Source: a virus
Strand: one strand, 5' to 3'
Length of the DNA stretch: 20,335 nucleotides
Virus record (IMG/VR): IMGVR_UViG_3300025769_001111
Span: 1 to 20,335 of that record
Position numbers and translations under genes: made by a program. The notes under the pieces were generated by a model, which ran no database searches, was not told where the DNA came from, and saw only the letters and a list, made by a program, of their open reading frames with translations. This document shows, piece by piece, positions 744 to 20,335 of the stretch (positions within the stretch are counted from its first letter, which is position 1; the number at the start of each line of letters is the position of its first letter).

Positions 744-1679
744 TTAGGAAGTGCTTAAGTCTGCAACAACACCATGAGCAGCTTCGTTGGACACTTCTAG
801 TCCATACTCAACTACGATCATTTTTGTTTGTGCGTCTCCAATAGTAGCAATATCTACTGTTTGGAAATTTCTTAAGTAAGCAACTTTTGCAAAGTCAGGA
901 TCAACTAGAAGAAGTGATCTTTCTCTTGATCTGTTTGATGGAACGATTTTGAGTTCACCAAAGTCAGATGAATAGATAGATACTGAAGCTTCTACAGTGT
1001 CTGCATCTACAAATTGTCTAGCAGATGATCTACCTGTGAAACCAGAGATAACTTGTTTGTTATGTGGTCCACAAATAGCCAATGATGGCTCACCACCATT
1101 AGAGAAAGCTAGTTCAAGTACGTCTTTAAGAAGAGTTTCAGTAAGAGCTCTCTGAGTACCATCGGTAGGCGCTGCACCTGATCCAGTTGAAGCACCACCA
1201 GTTCCTCTTGAATCGTTTGAAGTGATCCAAGATTCAAAACCACCAGTTACACGAGCAGTTGTCGCATTACCAGTTGTTTTAGCACCCTTTTGACAAAGAG
1301 CCTCTTCCATGTCTCTCTTAAGAGCTTTAGACATAATAGCAAGCTGGTGAGCCATTTCTGATCTCTTACCTGCTGGGTCTGAACTCTCTTGAGAGCCTGT
1401 TACTGTTGCATCTCTTTTTGAGATCATACATACGTTGCTCGCTCTTACAGTAGCGGTTGAAGATGATCTTGAAAGTTCAAAACCTTCTAGTTCACCACTT
1501 GCGCTTGGTGTAGGAAGCGATTCTGTTTGCCAATCAAAAACTACGTTTTTGACGTTTCGTGTGCCTATTGACGACATAAAAGGAGTCTGCATAGGAGAGA
1601 TATTGTAAATTATGTTACTTAGGTCCTCTCTGTCAGCAGTCGCTGTGTATGTGTCAAAGGCGTTTGTTACCTTAGCCAT
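744..1679 (-). CDS. Major capsid protein, SU10-like HK97 fold (DUF5309-type)
   Basis: The 311 residues match in length and pattern the SU10 major head protein family, formerly DUF5309. The N-terminal stretch (DREDLSNIIYNISPMQTPFMSSIG) is the family's opening motif, and GTRNVKNVVFDWQTESL follows. A central region after residue 100 holds SEMAHQLAIMSKALKRDMEEAL, the expected long spine helix. The C-terminal part contains a strand-rich segment with DPDFAKVAYLRNFQT and EYGLEVSNE. It assembles into the icosahedral shell. An AAGGA lies about nine bases before the ATG. The gene directly follows the scaffold-like gene and is followed by a strong terminator, as expected for the most abundant structural protein. 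Confidence 0.9.
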   Translation of the reverse strand: MAKVTNAFDTYTATADREDLSNIIYNISPMQTPFMSSIGTRNVKNVVFDWQTESLPTPSASGELEGFELSRSSSTATVRASNVCMISKRDATVTGSQESSDPAGKRSEMAHQLAIMSKALKRDMEEALCQKGAKTTGNATTARVTGGFESWITSNDSRGTGGASTGSGAAPTDGTQRALTETLLKDVLELAFSNGGEPSLAICGPHNKQVISGFTGRSSARQFVDADTVEASVSIYSSDFGELKIVPSNRSRERSLLLVDPDFAKVAYLRNFQTVDIATIGDAQTKMIVVEYGLEVSNEAAHGVVADLSTS

Positions 1680-1692
1680 TGTTATTTCCTTT

Positions 1693-2700
1693 TTAAATTA
1701 TTTGTTCAAATACACTAGCCGCATCCGAAGCTTTTCCAGATTTGGCCAACCTTTGTTTTGCTTTTTTAATAGCGCTTGTTGTCTTAGGAACATTTGCAGC
1801 ACCAGGTCTAGCTACTCGGCTTTTAGCCTTTTGCACTGGTTTCTTTTTAACTGCTTCGTTAGCTTGGTCATAAAGCCATGCGTTTCTTGCCATAAGTAAA
1901 ATCCTATAGTCATACACTTGGCCCATTTCCTCGGGTGAAAAGCCTAGTTTATTGACTCCATAATCAACGATAGCCCTTTCTTCGGTTGCCTTGATTGTGT
2001 CGTCCTTCCACTCAGGAATAGACTCTAACAATTTTTTTCTGCCTTCTTGAACAACTTCAGCAAGCTTTTCCTGTTGTTCTTGGAATTGTTTTTGCTGTAG
2101 CTCTTCTTTTTGTTTTTTGACAGATTGGATTGTTTTTTGTCTTTCATTCCACTTGTCACGCTCAGTTAGGTAAGCAATCGGATCAACCTCTCTGAGGCCT
2201 TCCCAATCCGGTTCTTGCTCAAAACCCTTGGTAAGCATTTGTTCCATTTGTGGTAACAAGTCACCATAAATAGCATCTTTTTCCGCTAACTCGTTTTGTC
2301 TTTGTTCTACTTCTTTTCGCAGAGTTGACAGTTCTTGAGTCTTGCGTGTGTAATCTCGCTGTCGAGAGTATCCGTTCACTAATTCATCAAGCGTGACCTC
2401 TAGTTCTTGACCATCCACTTTAACTGAGTGGAGGGTGGGTTGCTCTTCTTCAGAAACTTCTACTTGTTCCTCGTGAGAATCTAATTCTTCTTCATCGACC
2501 TCGGCTTCTTCATCCTCAGCAACGTCTTCTTCAAGCTCTGCTGCTTCAGGTAATTCATCTTCTTCGATGACTTCTTCTACTACTTCTGTTGTGACTGCCT
2601 CTTCGACCTTATCCTCTTCGGGGGTCAAGAAACTTTCAAACGCCGTAGTAGCAAGCTCTCGGTCAGTTTGTAAAGCAGTCGGTTTTCCGTTATTGCTCAT
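1693..2700 (-). CDS. Acidic scaffold-like head assembly protein
   Basis: The 335-residue protein has a strongly acidic first third (runs of E and D at about residues 30-85). A small structured segment follows (about 90-125: HSVKVDGQELEVTLDELVNG, then YSRQRDYTRKTQEL). A long coiled coil spans about 120-225 with many E, K and Q residues, and the C-terminal tail is basic (KKKPVQKAKSRVARP and KKAKQRLAKSGKA). An acidic N-terminus, a central coiled coil and a basic capsid-binding C-terminus describe phage scaffolding proteins. The position directly before the capsid gene agrees. TAGGAG lies eight bases before the start. No protease gene is seen nearby, so scaffold exit would have to occur without one or with one encoded elsewhere. 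Confidence 0.82.
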   Translation of the reverse strand: MSNNGKPTALQTDRELATTAFESFLTPEEDKVEEAVTTEVVEEVIEEDELPEAAELEEDVAEDEEAEVDEEELDSHEEQVEVSEEEQPTLHSVKVDGQELEVTLDELVNGYSRQRDYTRKTQELSTLRKEVEQRQNELAEKDAIYGDLLPQMEQMLTKGFEQEPDWEGLREVDPIAYLTERDKWNERQKTIQSVKKQKEELQQKQFQEQQEKLAEVVQEGRKKLLESIPEWKDDTIKATEERAIVDYGVNKLGFSPEEMGQVYDYRILLMARNAWLYDQANEAVKKKPVQKAKSRVARPGAANVPKTTSAIKKAKQRLAKSGKASDAASVFEQII

Positions 2701-4473: not shown

Positions 4474-4650
4474 CTAATTATCGTAAATGCATGAAACAAA
4501 AGCAACCAGTTCACCTATAACTTTTAACTCTGGGTTCATTTTTTTTGCTTTTGCCTCTGCTTCTTTAAATGAGTTGGCAATAATATTGCCGCCATCAAAG
4601 ATTTTAACTTTATTATCAGAGGTAGTTACTTTTATCTCGGTAAGATAAAT
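4474..4650 (-). CDS. 58-aa phage protein apparently starting at ATT, overlapping the holin stop
   Basis: A 58-codon frame fills the space between holin and endolysin genes. It reads (M)YLTEIKVTTSDNKVKIFDGG, continues NIIANSFKEAEAKAKKMNPE, and ends LKVIGELVAFVSCIYDN. In-frame TAA codons lie just upstream and no ATG, GTG or TTG is available near the 5' end. The holin stop TAA shares its last A with ATT, giving TAATT where neighbours show TAATG. The holin's own last codons supply an AAGGA at normal spacing. The sequence (strand, FDGG, then an F-x-EAE-x-A-K-K helix and IGEL) looks like small phage proteins I remember, all of unknown function. Either ATT is a rare start or one base was misread. 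Confidence 0.68.
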   Translation of the reverse strand: MYLTEIKVTTSDNKVKIFDGGNIIANSFKEAEAKAKKMNPELKVIGELVAFVSCIYDN

Positions 4651-5126
4651 TATTTCTTTTCCTTATTACTTGATCCAAAGTAAAACGATATAACTGCTGA
4701 AGCTATACCTGATAGATAACCAAGAATAAGCATGACGATATCGTCTGAACTATCATCTATTGGATAGGCTGTAATCATAAAGATATAACCAATAAAACCA
4801 ACCAAGGTTAATGATCCTAAAAACTTAGGTGTCCAATCACCACTAAACTTTTCTCTAGCGTGTTGGGTGTCCTCAGTTTCTAAAGAATAAATATCTATCT
4901 CAAACTGTTTCATTTGTAATTGAAAATCTTTTTCTGCTTTTTTAAGTTCAAGCATTTGCTCGGCTGTAAGATTATTAATTGCTTTTTCTATTTCTACAGG
5001 AGAGTTTTTTACACCTAAGACTTGAGATAGTATTTGACCAGCTTGACCACCCAAAGGGCCACCAATCGCTGCGCCGAGTGTCGGTGCTAGGCTAGTTACC
5101 AGATTCTTTATTTTGTTTAGTTTCAT
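4650..5126 (-). CDS. Holin of the 3TM (GTA-type) superfamily
   Basis: The 158 residues begin with a Gly/Ala-rich hydrophobic segment (about 10-37: LVTSLAPTLGAAIGGPLGG and on). A charged amphipathic helix follows (about 50-80: AEQMLELKKAEKDFQLQMKQ). A polar linker with ARE+FSGDWTP precedes two membrane helices (about 100-120, SLTLVGFIGYIFMI, and about 130-150, IVMLILGYLSGIASAVISFY), and the tail is basic (KEKK). This order, including the D-W-T-P before the first strong membrane helix and GSS at the end, is characteristic of the 3TM holin family. It would form the inner-membrane lesion that lets the M15 endolysin reach the wall. The AGGA upstream is too distant to help; coupling with the overlapping upstream gene is likely. 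Confidence 0.82.
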   Translation of the reverse strand: MKLNKIKNLVTSLAPTLGAAIGGPLGGQAGQILSQVLGVKNSPVEIEKAINNLTAEQMLELKKAEKDFQLQMKQFEIDIYSLETEDTQHAREKFSGDWTPKFLGSLTLVGFIGYIFMITAYPIDDSSDDIVMLILGYLSGIASAVISFYFGSSNKEKK

Positions 5127-5235
5127 TTTCTTTTAATCTTCTTTCCTGCATTAACAGTTTTAATTCATGCCAACGATAAAATGTTTTGTTAATGTGGTCC
5201 CAAAACAGACCTTTATTTTCGTTTGGCTTTTCCAT
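5092..5235 (-). CDS. 47-aa phage protein with FWD/YRWH pattern
   Basis: The reading frame from ATG 5235 gives 47 residues starting MEKPNENKGLFWDHINKTFY and continuing RWHELKLLMQERRLKENETK. The core F-W-D-x-I/V-N...Y-R-W-H-x-L-x-L-x-M-Q-E-R-R-L recurs in small phage proteins of unknown role, from memory. A single amphipathic helix is predicted. It overlaps the upstream 39-aa gene by 23 bases and the holin start by 35 bases, so it bridges the tiny-gene cluster and the lysis cassette. The regular codon pattern through the overlap and the recognisable motif support it as real despite its length. Confidence 0.6.
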   Translation of the reverse strand: MEKPNENKGLFWDHINKTFYRWHELKLLMQERRLKENETKQNKESGN

Positions 5236-5332
5236 TTTTGCTTTTAGATTTTTGCCTCTTAGTATTTTCTTCCATGTACTTGCTTAATTCAGCAAAGGTA
5301 TCAAATCTAATTTTTTTCTCAGGCTTACTCAC
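5213..5332 (-). CDS. 39-aa Lys-rich protein with GTG start
   Basis: The reading frame starts at GTG 5332, overlapping the stop of the previous tiny gene as GTGA. It encodes 39 residues: MSKPEKKIRFDTFAELSKYM, then EENTKRQKSKSKNGKAKRK. A short amphipathic helix (FDTFAELSKYMEENT) precedes a Lys/Arg-rich tail. The stop-start overlap and tight packing match the other genes here. Nothing identifies its function. The basic tail would suit binding to DNA or RNA or a minor head component. This is a moderate call because of the size. Confidence 0.55.
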   Translation of the reverse strand: MSKPEKKIRFDTFAELSKYMEENTKRQKSKSKNGKAKRK

Positions 5333-5475
5333 TTGTGTTTAGTTATAACTTCAAACTCAGCCGAAGTGGATGCTCCTTTGTGTGGTACAAACTTACCGTT
5401 ATTTTTCATCAATCTAAAAGTTTTACCGTCCTTCATAAAATGATAACCCTTTGGAGCTTTTACTTTTTTCTTCAT
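5329..5475 (-). CDS. 48-aa basic protein, function unknown
   Basis: The gene starts at ATG 5475, overlapping the previous stop as ATGA, and ends at TGA overlapping the next start. The 48 residues read MKKKVKAPKGYHFMKDGKTF, then RLMKNNGKFVPHKGASTSAE and FEVITKHK. The G-Y-H-F-M-K-D-G-K-x-F-R-L-M segment looks like a small beta-hairpin of the kind seen in short phage proteins. An R-L-M...G.FVPH+GA continuation supports selection on the protein. Charge is strongly positive. No catalytic residues or metal ligands are seen. Confidence 0.6.
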   Translation of the reverse strand: MKKKVKAPKGYHFMKDGKTFRLMKNNGKFVPHKGASTSAEFEVITKHK

Positions 5476-5591
5476 TTTCTTTTCTTCTTAGCCATTCTAA
5501 GTTTTTTGAAGTCAGCAGCCGTTATCTTTTTGCGTGGCGGGGCTATGCCTGCAAGTTTCTTTTGTTTCGCTGAATACTCTGAATATGGCAT
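5472..5591 (-). CDS. 39-aa conserved tiny phage protein (MPYSEYS...KITAADF type)
   Basis: The gene encodes 39 residues: MPYSEYSAKQKKLAGIAPPR, then KKITAADFKKLRMAKKKRK. The pattern Y-S-x-x-Q-K-K-L-A-x-x-A-P-P-R-x-K-I-T-x-A-D-F-K-x-L-R followed by a basic tail is one I recognise from many marine and other tailed phages, always as a tiny gene near the head module and without known function. It starts at ATG 5591 sharing bases with the previous stop (TAATG) and ends overlapping the next start (ATGA). The motif match makes this one of the firmest calls among the tiny genes. Confidence 0.72.
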   Translation of the reverse strand: MPYSEYSAKQKKLAGIAPPRKKITAADFKKLRMAKKKRK

Positions 5592-5668
5592 TACTTCTTA
5601 CCTTTTTTATAGCTTTTTTTCATTGGCTTTTTAACTGATTTCTTTTTTCCTTTGTGATACGGCGGCAT
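5591..5668 (-). CDS. 25-aa highly basic micro-protein
   Basis: This is a 25-codon gene: MPPYHKGKKKSVKKPMKKSY then KKGKK. Fourteen of 25 residues are Lys or Arg-like. Its ATG shares bases with the stop of the upstream gene (TAATG) and lies a few bases after a good GGAG, which is itself inside the end of that gene. Its own stop overlaps the next start. Short proteins of the form MP-x-x-Y/H-K-G-K-K... are common beside portal genes in marine phages, from memory. The composition suggests binding to nucleic acid or to the acidic interior of the head, which is inference only. Confidence 0.6.
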   Translation of the reverse strand: MPPYHKGKKKSVKKPMKKSYKKGKK

Positions 5669-5928
5669 TATTTTCTCCTTTTTCTATTTTGTTGAACTTT
5701 CTTCCATAAATCCTGGTCAGCCTTTCTTGCACCACCAGAACCAGAAGCAAATGATCTAGCTCTTGCAATACCCCATGAGATTGGAGTTTGACCGGGCCTT
5801 GAACCACTTGAGAAAAAAGCGCCTTGTCCTCTACGCATCACTTGTCTTAATATGCCAACCGGTACGTCATACTTATCGGACATATTTTTAAGTGTGGTTT
5901 TAGAACTATCTTTACTTTTTTTTGACAC
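5668..5928 (-). CDS. DUF5824-like phage protein
   Basis: The 86 residues contain the segment YDVPVGILRQVMRRGQGAFF, then SRPGQTPISWGIARARSF and GGARKADQDLW. The order (VPV-x-I-L+-V...RG...RPG-x-TP...W-x-x-A+-x-SF, then A-R-K-A-D-x-D-L-W) is that of a small family found in T4-like and many other phages, which I remember as DUF5824. No function is known. Tails at both ends are Lys/Arg-rich. The start is GTG at 5928, overlapping the previous gene by 17 bases; an internal ATG at 5883 is an alternative. The stop forms TAATG with the next micro-gene. Confidence 0.78.
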   Translation of the reverse strand: MSKKSKDSSKTTLKNMSDKYDVPVGILRQVMRRGQGAFFSSGSRPGQTPISWGIARARSFASGSGGARKADQDLWKKVQQNRKRRK

Positions 5929-6106
5929 TGTTCTTTCTCTGTTTGGTTATTTGATTCATTAGATATTCAGTCAGTTTACCCTCTGCATATAACCTAGCTG
6001 TGTTCTTTATTTCACGCTCTGTCTTTCTTTTATTCTTAGAGCCACGAACATATTTTACGGGAACACCGGCTTTGGTTTTTTTAACTTTGGGGAACTTACC
6101 TCTCAT
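5912..6106 (-). CDS. 64-aa basic phage protein, function unknown
   Basis: I start this gene at ATG 6106, which overlaps the stop of the upstream 33-aa membrane gene as ATGA, rather than at the TTG two codons earlier. The 64 residues read MRGKFPKVKKTKAGVPVKYV, then RGSKNKRKTEREIKNTARLY, and AEGKLTEYLMNQITKQR with a Lys-rich end. The pattern GVP-x-K-Y-x-x-G...R-x-x-E-I...T-x-x-L-Y-x-x-G+ matches small conserved phage proteins seen with DUF5824-like genes, from memory. The helical middle and basic ends suggest a small nucleic-acid-associated or head protein, which is unproven. Confidence 0.7.
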   Translation of the reverse strand: MRGKFPKVKKTKAGVPVKYVRGSKNKRKTEREIKNTARLYAEGKLTEYLMNQITKQRKNSVKKK

Positions 6107-6204
6107 AACCAACGATCTATTTTATCTTTGATGTAATCTTTGTGTTTGTCATAGACAAGGTAGCCTACGAGTCCCACAAGTAAAAGTATTGTTATTATTT
6201 CCAT
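6103..6204 (-). CDS. 33-aa single-pass membrane micro-protein
   Basis: The gene runs from ATG 6204 for 33 codons: MEIITILLLVGLVGYLVYDK, then HKDYIKDKIDRWL. One hydrophobic helix (residues 3-18) is followed by a charged amphipathic end with positive and negative residues. Its stop overlaps the next ATG (ATGA at 6106-6103), as with other real genes in this cluster. It fits in the otherwise empty 105-base gap between two larger genes. Small membrane proteins like this can assist lysis or block superinfection, but nothing shows which, if either, applies. Confidence 0.6.
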   Translation of the reverse strand: MEIITILLLVGLVGYLVYDKHKDYIKDKIDRWL

Positions 6205-6469: not shown

Positions 6470-6636
6470 TAGTGTATTGTTTTCTCCTCAAAGCTTAATA
6501 TCTGTGAGTCTTCATTGATTTGACCGCCAGACATTAAAATTAAAAGCTGGATCGCATGATCTCTATTTTTAGCTTTTATTTCTGTACCACAATACACCAT
6601 ATCGCCTTCTAAAACTTCAATATCATATAGTTTCAT
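6469..6636 (-). CDS. 55-aa small phage protein overlapping the portal gene end
   Basis: I start at ATG 6636, 14 bases inside the portal gene, giving MKLYDIEVLEGDMVYCGTEI, then KAKNRDHAIQLLILMSGGQI and NEDSQILSFEEKTIH. A GTG further upstream would add 19 residues read entirely from the portal gene in another frame, so I prefer 6636. The predicted fold is a strand, a strand, then the helix RDHAIQLLILMSGG, similar in shape to the 58-aa protein at 4474-4650, which may be a distant relative. The stop overlaps the next start as TAATG. Function unknown. Confidence 0.6.
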   Translation of the reverse strand: MKLYDIEVLEGDMVYCGTEIKAKNRDHAIQLLILMSGGQINEDSQILSFEEKTIH

Positions 6637-8776
6637 TGGCGTTTTTAAATAATCCCTGAGCTTGAGTTTTTGCAAGTGACCTGATTGATTCACGATCTCT
6701 CTCCATTAATGCGTTAATTTCTGCAACATTGACTTGTGCGCCGTACTTAGCATTAAGTTCAGCCGCTTTAAGTCTAATTTGCGCTTCTTCGATATCTCTG
6801 TTTCTATCATCGTCCATGATGATCTTCATTCTATCGGTTTCTGCATCAATGATAGCTTTCTGAGCTTGTACCTGAGCCTTCTGTGCTTCAGCTTGTGCAA
6901 GCATTTCAGCAGCATCCGGTTGTGGTGGTTGCGGAGGTATTGGTGCAACCTGAGTATTCATAAAGCTACTGACATCGTTGAAGCCTGCAAGCTCTATAAT
7001 CTTTGAAAGAGTGTTTGCATATTGTTGTAATGAAACCATTGGATTATTGACACCAAGGGTTTGTAAGATTTGTTCTTGCTTGCCTGCAAATGCGGTAAGC
7101 GCTTGTAGTTTTTCATTATCACTGGTTTTAGAAATAGCAACATTGATACTTAAATCTTTATCGCTGTCCCAATAACGTGGATCAACCGGAACAAATTTAT
7201 TGTTAAGTCTAAACATATCTTGAGCTTCTTGGTGTTTGATCACTAAGCCGTTGACTAGACCAAATAAATCTTTCATGCCTTCAGCAAAATGTCTGACAAT
7301 CAATTCAATTCTGCCTTGAGCGCCAGACATGGTAGCGGCAACCGCCGCCGCAGACGAAGATTGTAATGCATCGGCATTCAATCCGGCGGATGCCTTAGAT
7401 ACTCCTGTTCTATTTTCCTTAGCTTCATCAAGATAACCAAGGACCGGGAAAGCTTCACGCCCTACAAATGGAACCGTAAACGGTTGAACCATTCCAGGTG
7501 CTCGCATTCTAATGGGTTGTCCAATATCGGTGTTGAGTACGTCATCAATATTAACTTGGCCTTCAACAACACCCATTCTTGGGAATATTGAGTGACCGAG
7601 TGAGTCTAAAGTATCACGCATAATTTGTGACTTGGCTGCTTGAATCGGCATGAGGTAGTCTGCTGGACATGAACCGATTGAAGTGTGTGGCTCTGGGTCC
7701 GGACAAAACATAACAATGGGTAAATCGTCCCACTGCTCAACATTAATAATTTCAAGCGCATTCCCAAGCGTGCAAACACGGATGCGTTCATCAATGCCGT
7801 CATCGTCTAAGTCATAATAAAGATAATGCTCAACGTATAAAACTTGCTTGCCGCCGGTATCTCTTCTGTCGGTGGCAGTAATTTCTTCAAATGGGTTTCT
7901 GGCTTCTCTTTCTTCATAGCCATCGGTGTCGTAATAACCGCCACTGCCTGCGTATTGTTCTACTTCTTCTTGATCGTAGCCCATAGCAACCAAATCGCTT
8001 ACGGTTTTAATCATTCTATGTGCGACATACGGTGCCGTATTAATATCTCTAGCATTTCTTGAGATTAAGACTTCTTCCGGTGGTATGGATTCAATACATA
8101 CTTGGTCTTTGGCTTTAATTCTACGAATGGTTAAGTCATAAGAAGCTGGTTTTTCTTGAGTAATCTCTTCGTTTGTTTGTGGGTCAATGATGGTTATGGT
8201 TTCCATCGTGACCGATTCTTTAACAATCTCTACGTTTTCATCAAGTACGAGTGCTTGGTAGGATAAAGGATCAATATTGGTATATTCATGCGTGCTTGCT
8301 GAGATCGAATCGTCCCAGAATGCTTTTACAAATCCAGTTTTACGGATTAATGCATCTTTAAACACGTCATACATAACCTTAAATCCATCATTTTTTTGAG
8401 TAATGACGTGATTAATGTAATCGGTTTGTTGTTCGGCTACAGGAATGTCTTCTGGACCGTTAGGTACAAATTCTACGATTTTTTTAGTGCCAAAAAAGGT
8501 ACGCATGATGGAGGGGAGCATGAAGAGCACGCTGTCACGCACATCTGTAGAGACGTATTCGCTTTGTAGCGAGGATACTGATGATGGCTCGTCTCCAAGA
8601 TAATAACGTGTTGCATCAGCACGCTCCTCTCCAATCTGATCAATGAAGTCTTGAGCATCATCGAGTTCACTTTGCAGTATCCCTTGCAATTCGATGACTT
8701 TCTCGCCTGTATTTACTTTTTCTTCTTGGTTTTCGACTTCAAGATCAGAGTAACCGTCTTTTTTTTCTTCCTGCAT
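6623..8776 (-). CDS. Portal protein, P22-type
   Basis: The 717-residue protein is the dodecameric head vertex through which DNA enters and leaves. It has the family layout: a charged N-terminus, then ADATRYYLGDEPSSV and QSEYVSTDVRDSVLFMLPSI (about 55-95). A long body follows with YYDLDDDGIDE near residue 300, an acidic loop like those in P22-type portals. The stretch GVSKASAGLNADALQSSSAA (about residue 455 on) is very characteristic. The C-terminal third is Ala/Gln-rich coiled coil (AEAQKAQVQAQKAIIDAET), as in the barrel or crown region. It lies four bases after the large terminase gene, and AGGATAATTT ATG gives a usable ribosome site. Confidence 0.93.
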   Translation of the reverse strand: MQEEKKDGYSDLEVENQEEKVNTGEKVIELQGILQSELDDAQDFIDQIGEERADATRYYLGDEPSSVSSLQSEYVSTDVRDSVLFMLPSIMRTFFGTKKIVEFVPNGPEDIPVAEQQTDYINHVITQKNDGFKVMYDVFKDALIRKTGFVKAFWDDSISASTHEYTNIDPLSYQALVLDENVEIVKESVTMETITIIDPQTNEEITQEKPASYDLTIRRIKAKDQVCIESIPPEEVLISRNARDINTAPYVAHRMIKTVSDLVAMGYDQEEVEQYAGSGGYYDTDGYEEREARNPFEEITATDRRDTGGKQVLYVEHYLYYDLDDDGIDERIRVCTLGNALEIINVEQWDDLPIVMFCPDPEPHTSIGSCPADYLMPIQAAKSQIMRDTLDSLGHSIFPRMGVVEGQVNIDDVLNTDIGQPIRMRAPGMVQPFTVPFVGREAFPVLGYLDEAKENRTGVSKASAGLNADALQSSSAAAVAATMSGAQGRIELIVRHFAEGMKDLFGLVNGLVIKHQEAQDMFRLNNKFVPVDPRYWDSDKDLSINVAISKTSDNEKLQALTAFAGKQEQILQTLGVNNPMVSLQQYANTLSKIIELAGFNDVSSFMNTQVAPIPPQPPQPDAAEMLAQAEAQKAQVQAQKAIIDAETDRMKIIMDDDRNRDIEEAQIRLKAAELNAKYGAQVNVAEINALMERDRESIRSLAKTQAQGLFKNANETI

Positions 8777-19958: not shown

Positions 19959-20335
19959 CTAAGCACTCATAATTAGTTTTTGTAGGTGCTTACCGATTTT
20001 TTGTGCGTTCTCTTCCGCCCTGCATGCATGCACATGTGCATATCTTTGTGTTGTCGCAATATCCCTATGACCCAATAAATTACCAACCTCTGACAGATTA
20101 ACGTTCTCCAGGGCCCAGGATGCATAGGAATGTCTTAAATCATGCAAGCGTAAGTCTTCGCAATCAGCCTCTTTTCTGATTGTATTCCATAACTTTTTAG
20201 GTGTTTTGATGCCGGTGATAGTAGAGTGTCGCTTCGGCAAGCTCCGCAAAATTTCAAGGAGCAAAGGTGTTAGATATAGATTACGATTCTCACCAAAGCG
20301 ATCTGTCTTGTGCTCCCTTATTATAATCTTATTAT
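19959..20335 (-). CDS. int: Tyrosine integrase, C-terminal part (N-terminus beyond window)
   Basis: The frame is open from 19959 to the right edge, so only the last 124 residues are present; the TTG at 20264 is not a true start. Visible catalytic elements are the Lys in EHKTDRFGENRNLYLTPL, the H-x-x-R box in LRLHDLRHSYASWALENVN, and the second His plus Tyr in NLLGHRDIATTQRYAHVHA. The first catalytic Arg should lie upstream, outside the window. The enzyme recombines phage and host attachment sites, showing a temperate lifestyle or descent. The C-terminus contains a long TGCATGCATGCA word at about 20021-20032. No att site could be identified. Its stop abuts that of the convergent 67-aa gene. 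Confidence 0.9.
   Translation of the reverse strand, partial: NKIIIREHKTDRFGENRNLYLTPLLLEILRSLPKRHSTITGIKTPKKLWNTIRKEADCEDLRLHDLRHSYASWALENVNLSEVGNLLGHRDIATTQRYAHVHACRAEENAQKIGKHLQKLIMSA

Follow-up and report, generated by a model that had tools for sequence, protein, structure and literature searches.

Overlapping basic micro-genes beside the portal gene of a marine phage: a mosaic cassette that may encode internal head proteins

A run of very short, mostly basic genes lies between the portal gene and a holin-like gene of a marine phage, which raises the question of whether such short frames are genes and, if so, what their products might do. The window, the whole stretch of DNA that was analyzed, is the 20,335-base IMG/VR virus record IMGVR_UViG_3300025769_001111, in which the head and packaging region is on the minus strand (Table 1). 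Judged by sequence comparison, the chain of micro-genes is a mosaic cassette, in which the families g83, g66, g86, g39b, and g48 recur reshuffled across phages, and it is read here, with slightly better than even confidence, as a cassette of internal head micro-proteins. An earlier note on this DNA had suggested that the proteins go into the head with the DNA. That suggestion was best supported for g83 and, less firmly, for g86 (leaders, cleavage-like sites, and protease fusions). The support was fair for g86 together with its partner g66, which comes in because of its near-constant pairing with g86. It was weak, by association only, for g39b, g48, g25, and g39a, and the internal-head reading leaves out g33 and g47.

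The chain that the earlier note had described at positions 5092 to 6204 proved to be real. Eight linked open reading frames (ORFs) on the same strand spanned 1113 of the 1113 nt without a gap. In dinucleotide shuffles (n = 200), chain coverage had a mean of 240 nt and a maximum of 547 nt, and 0/200 shuffles equaled the observed 1113 nt; coverage on the opposite strand of the same interval was 468 nt. The TAATG, ATGA, and GTGA joins were also seen. From the coordinates, g33 meets g66 at ATGA, g66 overlaps g86 by 17 nt, and both g86/g25 and g25/g39b are joined by TAATG. The remaining junctions are ATGA at g39b/g48, GTGA at g48/g39a, and overlaps of 23 nt at g39a/g47 and 35 nt between g47 and the holin-like gene.

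In order to follow the frames in relatives, two sets of sequences were used. The first consisted of 80 IMG/VR loci that the portal protein had retrieved, plus the window, and many of its contigs end short of the region. Here g83 was present in 53 sequences, both g66 and g86 in 15, g39b in 12, g48 in 11, g47 in 4, and both g39a and g33 in 3, whereas g25 was confined to the window. In the enlarged set of 255 sequences, for part of which g86 or g39b had served as the query and which includes near-duplicates, the counts were 156 for g83, 117 for g86, 110 for g66, 106 for g39b (80 of these loci had been fetched using g39b), 33 for g48, 7 each for g39a, g33, and g47, and 5 for g25.

Codons were compared between the window and up to seven relatives for the nine genes from g83 to g47, with overlaps left unmasked and without a significance test. 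The ratio of nonsynonymous to synonymous differences (pN/pS) ranged from 0 to 0.61 (0.05 to 0.34 for g83) and was below 1 in all 27 informative comparisons. The third codon position was the most variable in 25 of the 27, the exceptions being g39b versus L099, which was a tie, and g47 versus L034. Relative L097 was identical to the window across g83 to g47, and the coding signal of g25 consisted of three differences in one informative relative. These counts and pN/pS values indicate that relatives keep the micro-gene frames, apparently under selection as proteins, and the lack of conservation that the earlier note had named as evidence against them did not occur. Its expectation that standard gene callers with a 60-aa limit miss most of these genes was borne out in part: CRP-901 has no annotated feature under its 48-aa homologue, but homologues of 42 and 47 aa are annotated in HTVC106P.

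The charge of the proteins followed the earlier description for most of the chain. Six of the eight are strongly basic, with net charges of +18 (g66/64), +16 (g86), +12 (g25 and g39b), +10 (g48), and +9 (g39a) and an isoelectric point (pI) above 10 in every case. The other two, g33 (net 0) and g47 (net +2), are ruled out as members of the basic set, so that "extremely basic" does not describe them. Upstream of the chain, g83 (net +17, pI above 10) belongs to the same basic set.

The internal-head reading of g83 comes in large part from T4-like relatives. A set of 160 loci was fetched with g83 of HTVC008M and g86 of C48C1; their T4-like assignment was assumed and unchecked per locus. It held 111 distinct g83 proteins, 94 of them with a clear YxG boundary. 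The motif [LI]xE[AGS] lay no more than 8 residues ahead of this boundary in 81/94 (86/94 when the first residue was relaxed), EITE/AEYQG being an example, against a background of 340 in 23,629 9-mers. A start resembling MKxFK, like that of a capsid targeting sequence (CTS), was found in 76/104 short g83 proteins versus 92/732 control ORFs from the same loci, and leader and site occurred together in 65/104 short g83 proteins versus 16/732 controls (8/446 of the controls under 200 aa). In these phages, a T4-like capsid-targeting leader and a site of the prohead-protease type usually precede the g83 domain. For g86 in the same set, a looser, post hoc leader pattern was found in 33/38 proteins and the site in 30/38.

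This arrangement is that of the CTS class of phage T4 (IPI, IPIII, and Alt), which are small late proteins inside the head. T4 IPI (NC_000866) starts with MKTFKEF and has STITE before the A at residue 20, the same layout as in T4-like g83, and this agrees with the propeptides of 10 to 19 residues given for T4 internal proteins in the available text of PMC9026906. That text also describes GFP fused to the IPIII leader, used in tests for gp21-dependent processing and for encapsidation. Cleavage of T4 Alt after ITE and LTE is given in the part of PMC5694885 that was available. The relatives of g83 share with this class the MKxF-type leader and the [LI]xE site. The genes of the window share its small size and basic character (six of the eight plus g83) but have neither leader nor site. 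The g83 protein of the window begins with MAIKYRG, without an N-terminal CTS and close to the presumed cut point of the T4-like form (AEYQG).

A protease that could release such proteins was encoded in 3/3 of the T4-like phages HTVC008M, Melnitz-1, and C48C1 (placed in the Kyanoviridae by their records), each of which has a gp21-type protease. Neither an S78 nor an S78_2 protease was found in 8/8 records of relatives of the window (31,854 to 36,926 bases), in which these two families were the ones sought. The simplest reading of relatives without a detected S78/S78_2 protease would be that the released form is made directly.

Fusions point in the same direction. In ICP1-type phages the g83 domain lies within a polypeptide that also holds a prohead-protease domain: ICP1 gp125 and Vibrio phage 1.101.O gp105 combine Peptidase_S78_2 and g83, in opposite domain order, and their genes sit between portal and capsid genes. 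These proteins share the g83 domain and the portal-capsid location with the window and differ from it in being single polypeptides. The g83 model also matched an XkdF-labeled uncultured phage protein and ICP1 ORF125 among the predicted viral structures of BFVD. According to the available text of PMC9040626, the proteomics of ICP1 virions was still incomplete in 2021. A further protein, CRP-823 gp40, is annotated as a capsid protein, and its gene is flanked by the portal gene and by a second gene with that annotation; the protein has a subthreshold DUF5824 match (22.2 bits), DUF5824 being the family of g86.

In T4-like phages, the g83 and g86 domains are parts of other proteins or are N-terminally extended. 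HTVC008M encodes a cytidylyltransferase-like protein with DUF5824 at its end and, after it, g83 as a gene of its own, and Melnitz-1 gp17 contains cytidylyltransferase, DUF5824, and g83 in a single chain. In C48C1, g86 and g83 are separate genes, both with leaders. Purified virions of S-SM1 contain the cytidylyltransferase GC190, as detected by mass spectrometry according to the part of PMC3037559 that was available. Its gene, identified from the S-SM1 record, shares its PHROGs with the HTVC008M and Melnitz-1 counterparts, and its product starts with a CTS-like leader (MKKFSAFLNEA). GC190 was expected to carry g83 and DUF5824, and this was ruled out, as neither domain is present.

Two side observations concern these carrier proteins. 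CTS-like starts are found on several cytidylyltransferase-like proteins of marine T4-like phages (L439:2757-3917, which is S-SM1_190; L087:4864-6813; and L091:3040-4827), and such proteins may be enzymes that are delivered into the host. Separately, phrog_1530, which is labeled as a DNA methyltransferase, matches the S78_2-protease-plus-g83 proteins L082:5458-6291 and L092:4782-5945 at E values of 2e-56 or better, and the label looks wrong.

If the products are internal head proteins, the modules would be built into the procapsid, be retained with the packaged DNA, and perhaps exit with the DNA at injection. A phage that has a scaffold but no detected S78-type protease would make a leaderless, ready-released module. 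Such leaderless micro-proteins would arise by coupled translation of the late mRNA and could enter the procapsid via the acidic scaffold, the portal, or the DNA.

The cassette families move together among phages whose neighboring genes differ. Even among the relatives of the window, the gene content from the portal gene to the M15 peptidase gene varies, and the genes that flank the cassette families fell into 47 upstream and 33 downstream clusters. Gene g66 was present in 78/80 loci fetched by g86, and in the other two (L131 and L155) g86 is at the contig edge. Among 109 loci with both genes, g66 overlapped the start of g86 in 93, was further apart in 10, and was in reverse order in 6, counts that assume the earliest starts. 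At least one of g83, g66, g86, and g48 was present in 43/80 loci fetched by g39b. In MED4-184, g66, g86, a 51-aa gene, and g83 are flanked by a Mu-F-like head gene on one side and a gene that reads as scaffold-like on the other, and in KBS-S-2A, g83 is two genes ahead of the annotated coat gene.

Neighbors were classed in loci from L099 on, of which 111 had a large upstream neighbor and 111 a large downstream one; most clusters were left unscanned. Head or packaging genes were found upstream in 35/111 and downstream in 36/111, or in 61 loci when either side is counted. In one cluster of 20 loci, TerL directly follows the g66-g86 region with a median gap of -3 nt, and in a second cluster (7 loci), TerL is also downstream of that region.

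The g66-g86 pair of the window (5668-6106) looks as if it had been exchanged as a unit, having diverged more than g33, g48, and g83 from L002, L007, and L099. The g86 protein is 41% identical to those of L002 and L007, g33 is 100% and 73% identical to its counterparts in L002 and L007, respectively, and g48 is 92% identical to that of L007. Other small genes were seen beside the cassette families. A small basic protein of 51 to 60 aa adjoins g66-g86 in MED4-184 (L085:4213-4365) and HTVC111P (L093:3577-3756), the two being alike by eye, and HTVC106P gp25 and gp26 (L084:4797-5200) are Lys-rich, Cys-containing small proteins beside a g83-g39b-g48 run. The cross-family multigene transfer described in the available text of PMC9599517 concerns mainly metabolic and curli genes, and the cassette genes are absent from that text. 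No prior description of the cassette or of an internal-head role was found in the literature searched, which covered few subscription papers.

Several points weigh against an internal location. None of the micro-proteins has so far been seen in a virion. The [LI]xE[AGS] site was present in 0/121 distinct g83 proteins of non-T4 phages, that of the window included, and since 83 of the 121 start no more than 12 aa from the boundary, with little room for a site, the contrast with T4-like phages is mainly one of 0/38. The fetched sequences are related, so that the counts of leaders and sites are not independent. Matches to g66, g39b, and g48 were absent from the 160 T4-like loci, and the strict leader pattern was found in just 9/64 short g86 proteins. 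The protease of the window's relatives may belong to another family, and their records may be fragments. Because S-SM1 GC190 lacks both domains, its detection in virions bears only on an enzyme that has them in other phages, and the cytidylyltransferase fusion could reflect nucleic-acid binding instead of packaging. In 18 loci, the nearest large upstream gene encodes a DnaB-type helicase and not a head protein.

Table 1. Micro-genes of the window and the genes around them
Feature	Coordinates	Strand	Remarks
Portal protein	6623..8776	-	Upstream context; phrog_1216, E 1.6e-149
g83, 83 aa	6218..6469	-	phrog_7595, E 1.6e-22; outside the coordinates of the earlier note
g33, 33 aa	6103..6204	-	Hydrophobic stretch, membrane-like; near relatives only
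g66/64	5912..6106	-	64 aa from ATG 6106, or 66 aa from TTG 6112; g86 partner
g86, 86 aa	5668..5928	-	DUF5824 (PF19141); predicted all-helical
g25, 25 aa	5591..5668	-	48% Lys/Arg
g39b, 39 aa	5472..5591	-	Widespread family
g48, 48 aa	5329..5475	-	
g39a, 39 aa	5213..5332	-	GTG start; near relatives only
g47, 47 aa	5092..5235	-	Overlaps the holin-like gene
158-aa protein	4650..5126	-	phrog_1544; downstream context; holin-like by reading and position alone
Head scaffolding protein	1693..2700	-	Net -33; context
SU10-type major capsid protein	744-1679		Next gene after the scaffold

On the minus strand, the order is TerL (10312-8780), the portal gene, g74, g83, the micro-genes, the 158-aa holin-like gene, and the M15 peptidase gene, followed by further genes, the acidic scaffold, and the major capsid protein. 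Near the end of the sequence, an ORF at 19959-20264 (minus strand) reads as the C-terminal end of a tyrosine recombinase and, if it is one, would hint that the phage is temperate.

One alternative is that the basic micro-proteins are assembly factors that bind the acidic scaffold, portal, or terminase, aid nucleation or packaging, and leave without being retained. The location between the portal and scaffold genes, the net charges of the scaffold (-33) and the portal (-53), and the two TerL clusters near g66-g86 would suit such factors. Neutralization of the scaffold, which the earlier note had put forward, is a candidate role with which the charges are compatible. However, T4-like relatives combine the leader with a cut-like site, which points to proteins that enter the prohead and are released inside it, and assembly factors that are not retained seem rather improbable.

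Comparisons with known families gave g83 and g86 relatives but few functional clues. The match of g83 to phrog_7595, a family of unknown function, extends over model positions 6 to 96 of 96. The T4-like, MED4-184, and KBS-S-2A proteins are members alongside it, and the window differs in that g83 heads a longer micro-gene run. The g86 protein matches DUF5824 with 33.9 bits (cut-off, 25), another family of unknown function, and phrog_28338 at E 3.2e-12, but covers only the second half of the 127-position DUF5824 model. That g66 is the N-terminal half of DUF5824 was rejected, as 0/12 g66 members match the model.

The shorter families were harder to place. In Pfam, PHROGs, and NCBIfam, g39b had no significant profile matches and neither did g48, for which PHROGs gave only rows with E values of 0.12 to 0.15; the NCBIfam profile search with 10 proteins returned one weak, unrelated row. 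Searches of phage records with tblastn found no match to g39b or g66, whereas our own profiles found HTVC106P gp29 (g39b) and MED4-184 gp41 and HTVC111P gp58 (g66). Homologues of g48 are also present in HTVC103P, HTVC104P, HTVC106P, and CRP-901. Apart from these families, DUF5824-like matches were present in 181 Salinibacter ruber phage records (OR896199-OR896349 and others; 60 of 195 rows listed); these phages are far from marine alphaproteobacterial phages.

AlphaFold predicted strands followed by helices for g83 (pLDDT, 79.9) and an all-helical structure for g86 (pLDDT, 83.0). A sequence search of the PDB with g83, g86, and g66 gave nothing useful. In the PDB fold search, the best Foldseek E values were 0.6 for g83 and 0.95 for g86 and the best VIA Z scores were 2.0 and 3.8, which does not imply a new fold.

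The best Foldseek rows of g86 were ribosomal proteins, none of them significant, and they bear on a second alternative, in which the proteins are late-made host-takeover or nucleic-acid-binding regulators that are never packaged and whose targets are the nucleoid, the RNA polymerase, or the ribosomes of the host. It is common for small phage proteins to have targets in the host, some phages carry g86 and g83 fused to a cytidylyltransferase, and 18 loci have the cassette families near a DnaB-type helicase. The prohead-protease fusions, the leader and site, and the frequent head or packaging neighbors speak against host regulators, and this explanation is considered unlikely. Zero support was found for the suggestion in the earlier note that the proteins condense host DNA.

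Bulk neutralization of packaged DNA, as by viral histones, would account for the high charge, and basic DNA-binding proteins are reported from chlorovirus virions in the available text of PMC3281028. At +10 to +18 each, however, thousands of copies would be required for a genome of tens of kilobases, and the same text sees no evidence of a large contribution by basic proteins to the neutralization of phage DNA. On these two grounds, bulk neutralization was rejected as the main role and is very unlikely. Chance or non-coding frames, for which the short lengths and the presence of g25 in only five near relatives might speak, are ruled out for g83, g66, g86, g39b, and g48 by the shuffles, the pN/pS values, and the conserved families in many loci, and have a negligible probability for the chain.

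A wider relationship of g83 was also considered. According to the available text of PMC4642659, Tlr6f is a small conserved protein, function unknown, that almost every polinton-like virus has and that is also present in several virophages, in many giant viruses, and in some phages. Like it, g83 is a small protein conserved across viruses, but the match of g83 to DUF5754/Tlr6F (PF19058) is weak (21.3 bits, below the cut-off of 27.4). DUF5754 was matched by 7/27 g83 family members at E values of 0.01 or less, and the unrelated model Phage_tail_tube_init was matched by 5/27 at similar strength (best E, 1.7e-4). It is conceivable that Tlr6F/DUF5754 has its phage branch in the g83 domain and that g83 and its companions are an old, exchangeable, virion-internal set. 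Tailed phages would share this set with virophages, giant viruses, and polinton-like viruses, and it would be delivered by a free micro-gene, with a CTS leader that the prohead protease cuts, or in a protease fusion. This extension is doubtful because an unrelated second model matches g83 members as well as DUF5754 does.

If the Tlr6F link were true, it would provide a first function for Tlr6F. If the products of the cassette are indeed internal head proteins, then phrog_7595, DUF5824, and possibly Tlr6F, as well as the short families g39b and g48, would gain a place in the virion, and one module would be delivered in three forms: from a free micro-gene, tagged with a leader as a protease substrate, or contained in the protease polypeptide. 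The peptides would then be open to search inside purified virions of cultured marine phages, although digestion with trypsin loses Lys-rich peptides. For annotation, runs of basic genes of 25 to 90 aa near head and packaging genes should be kept.

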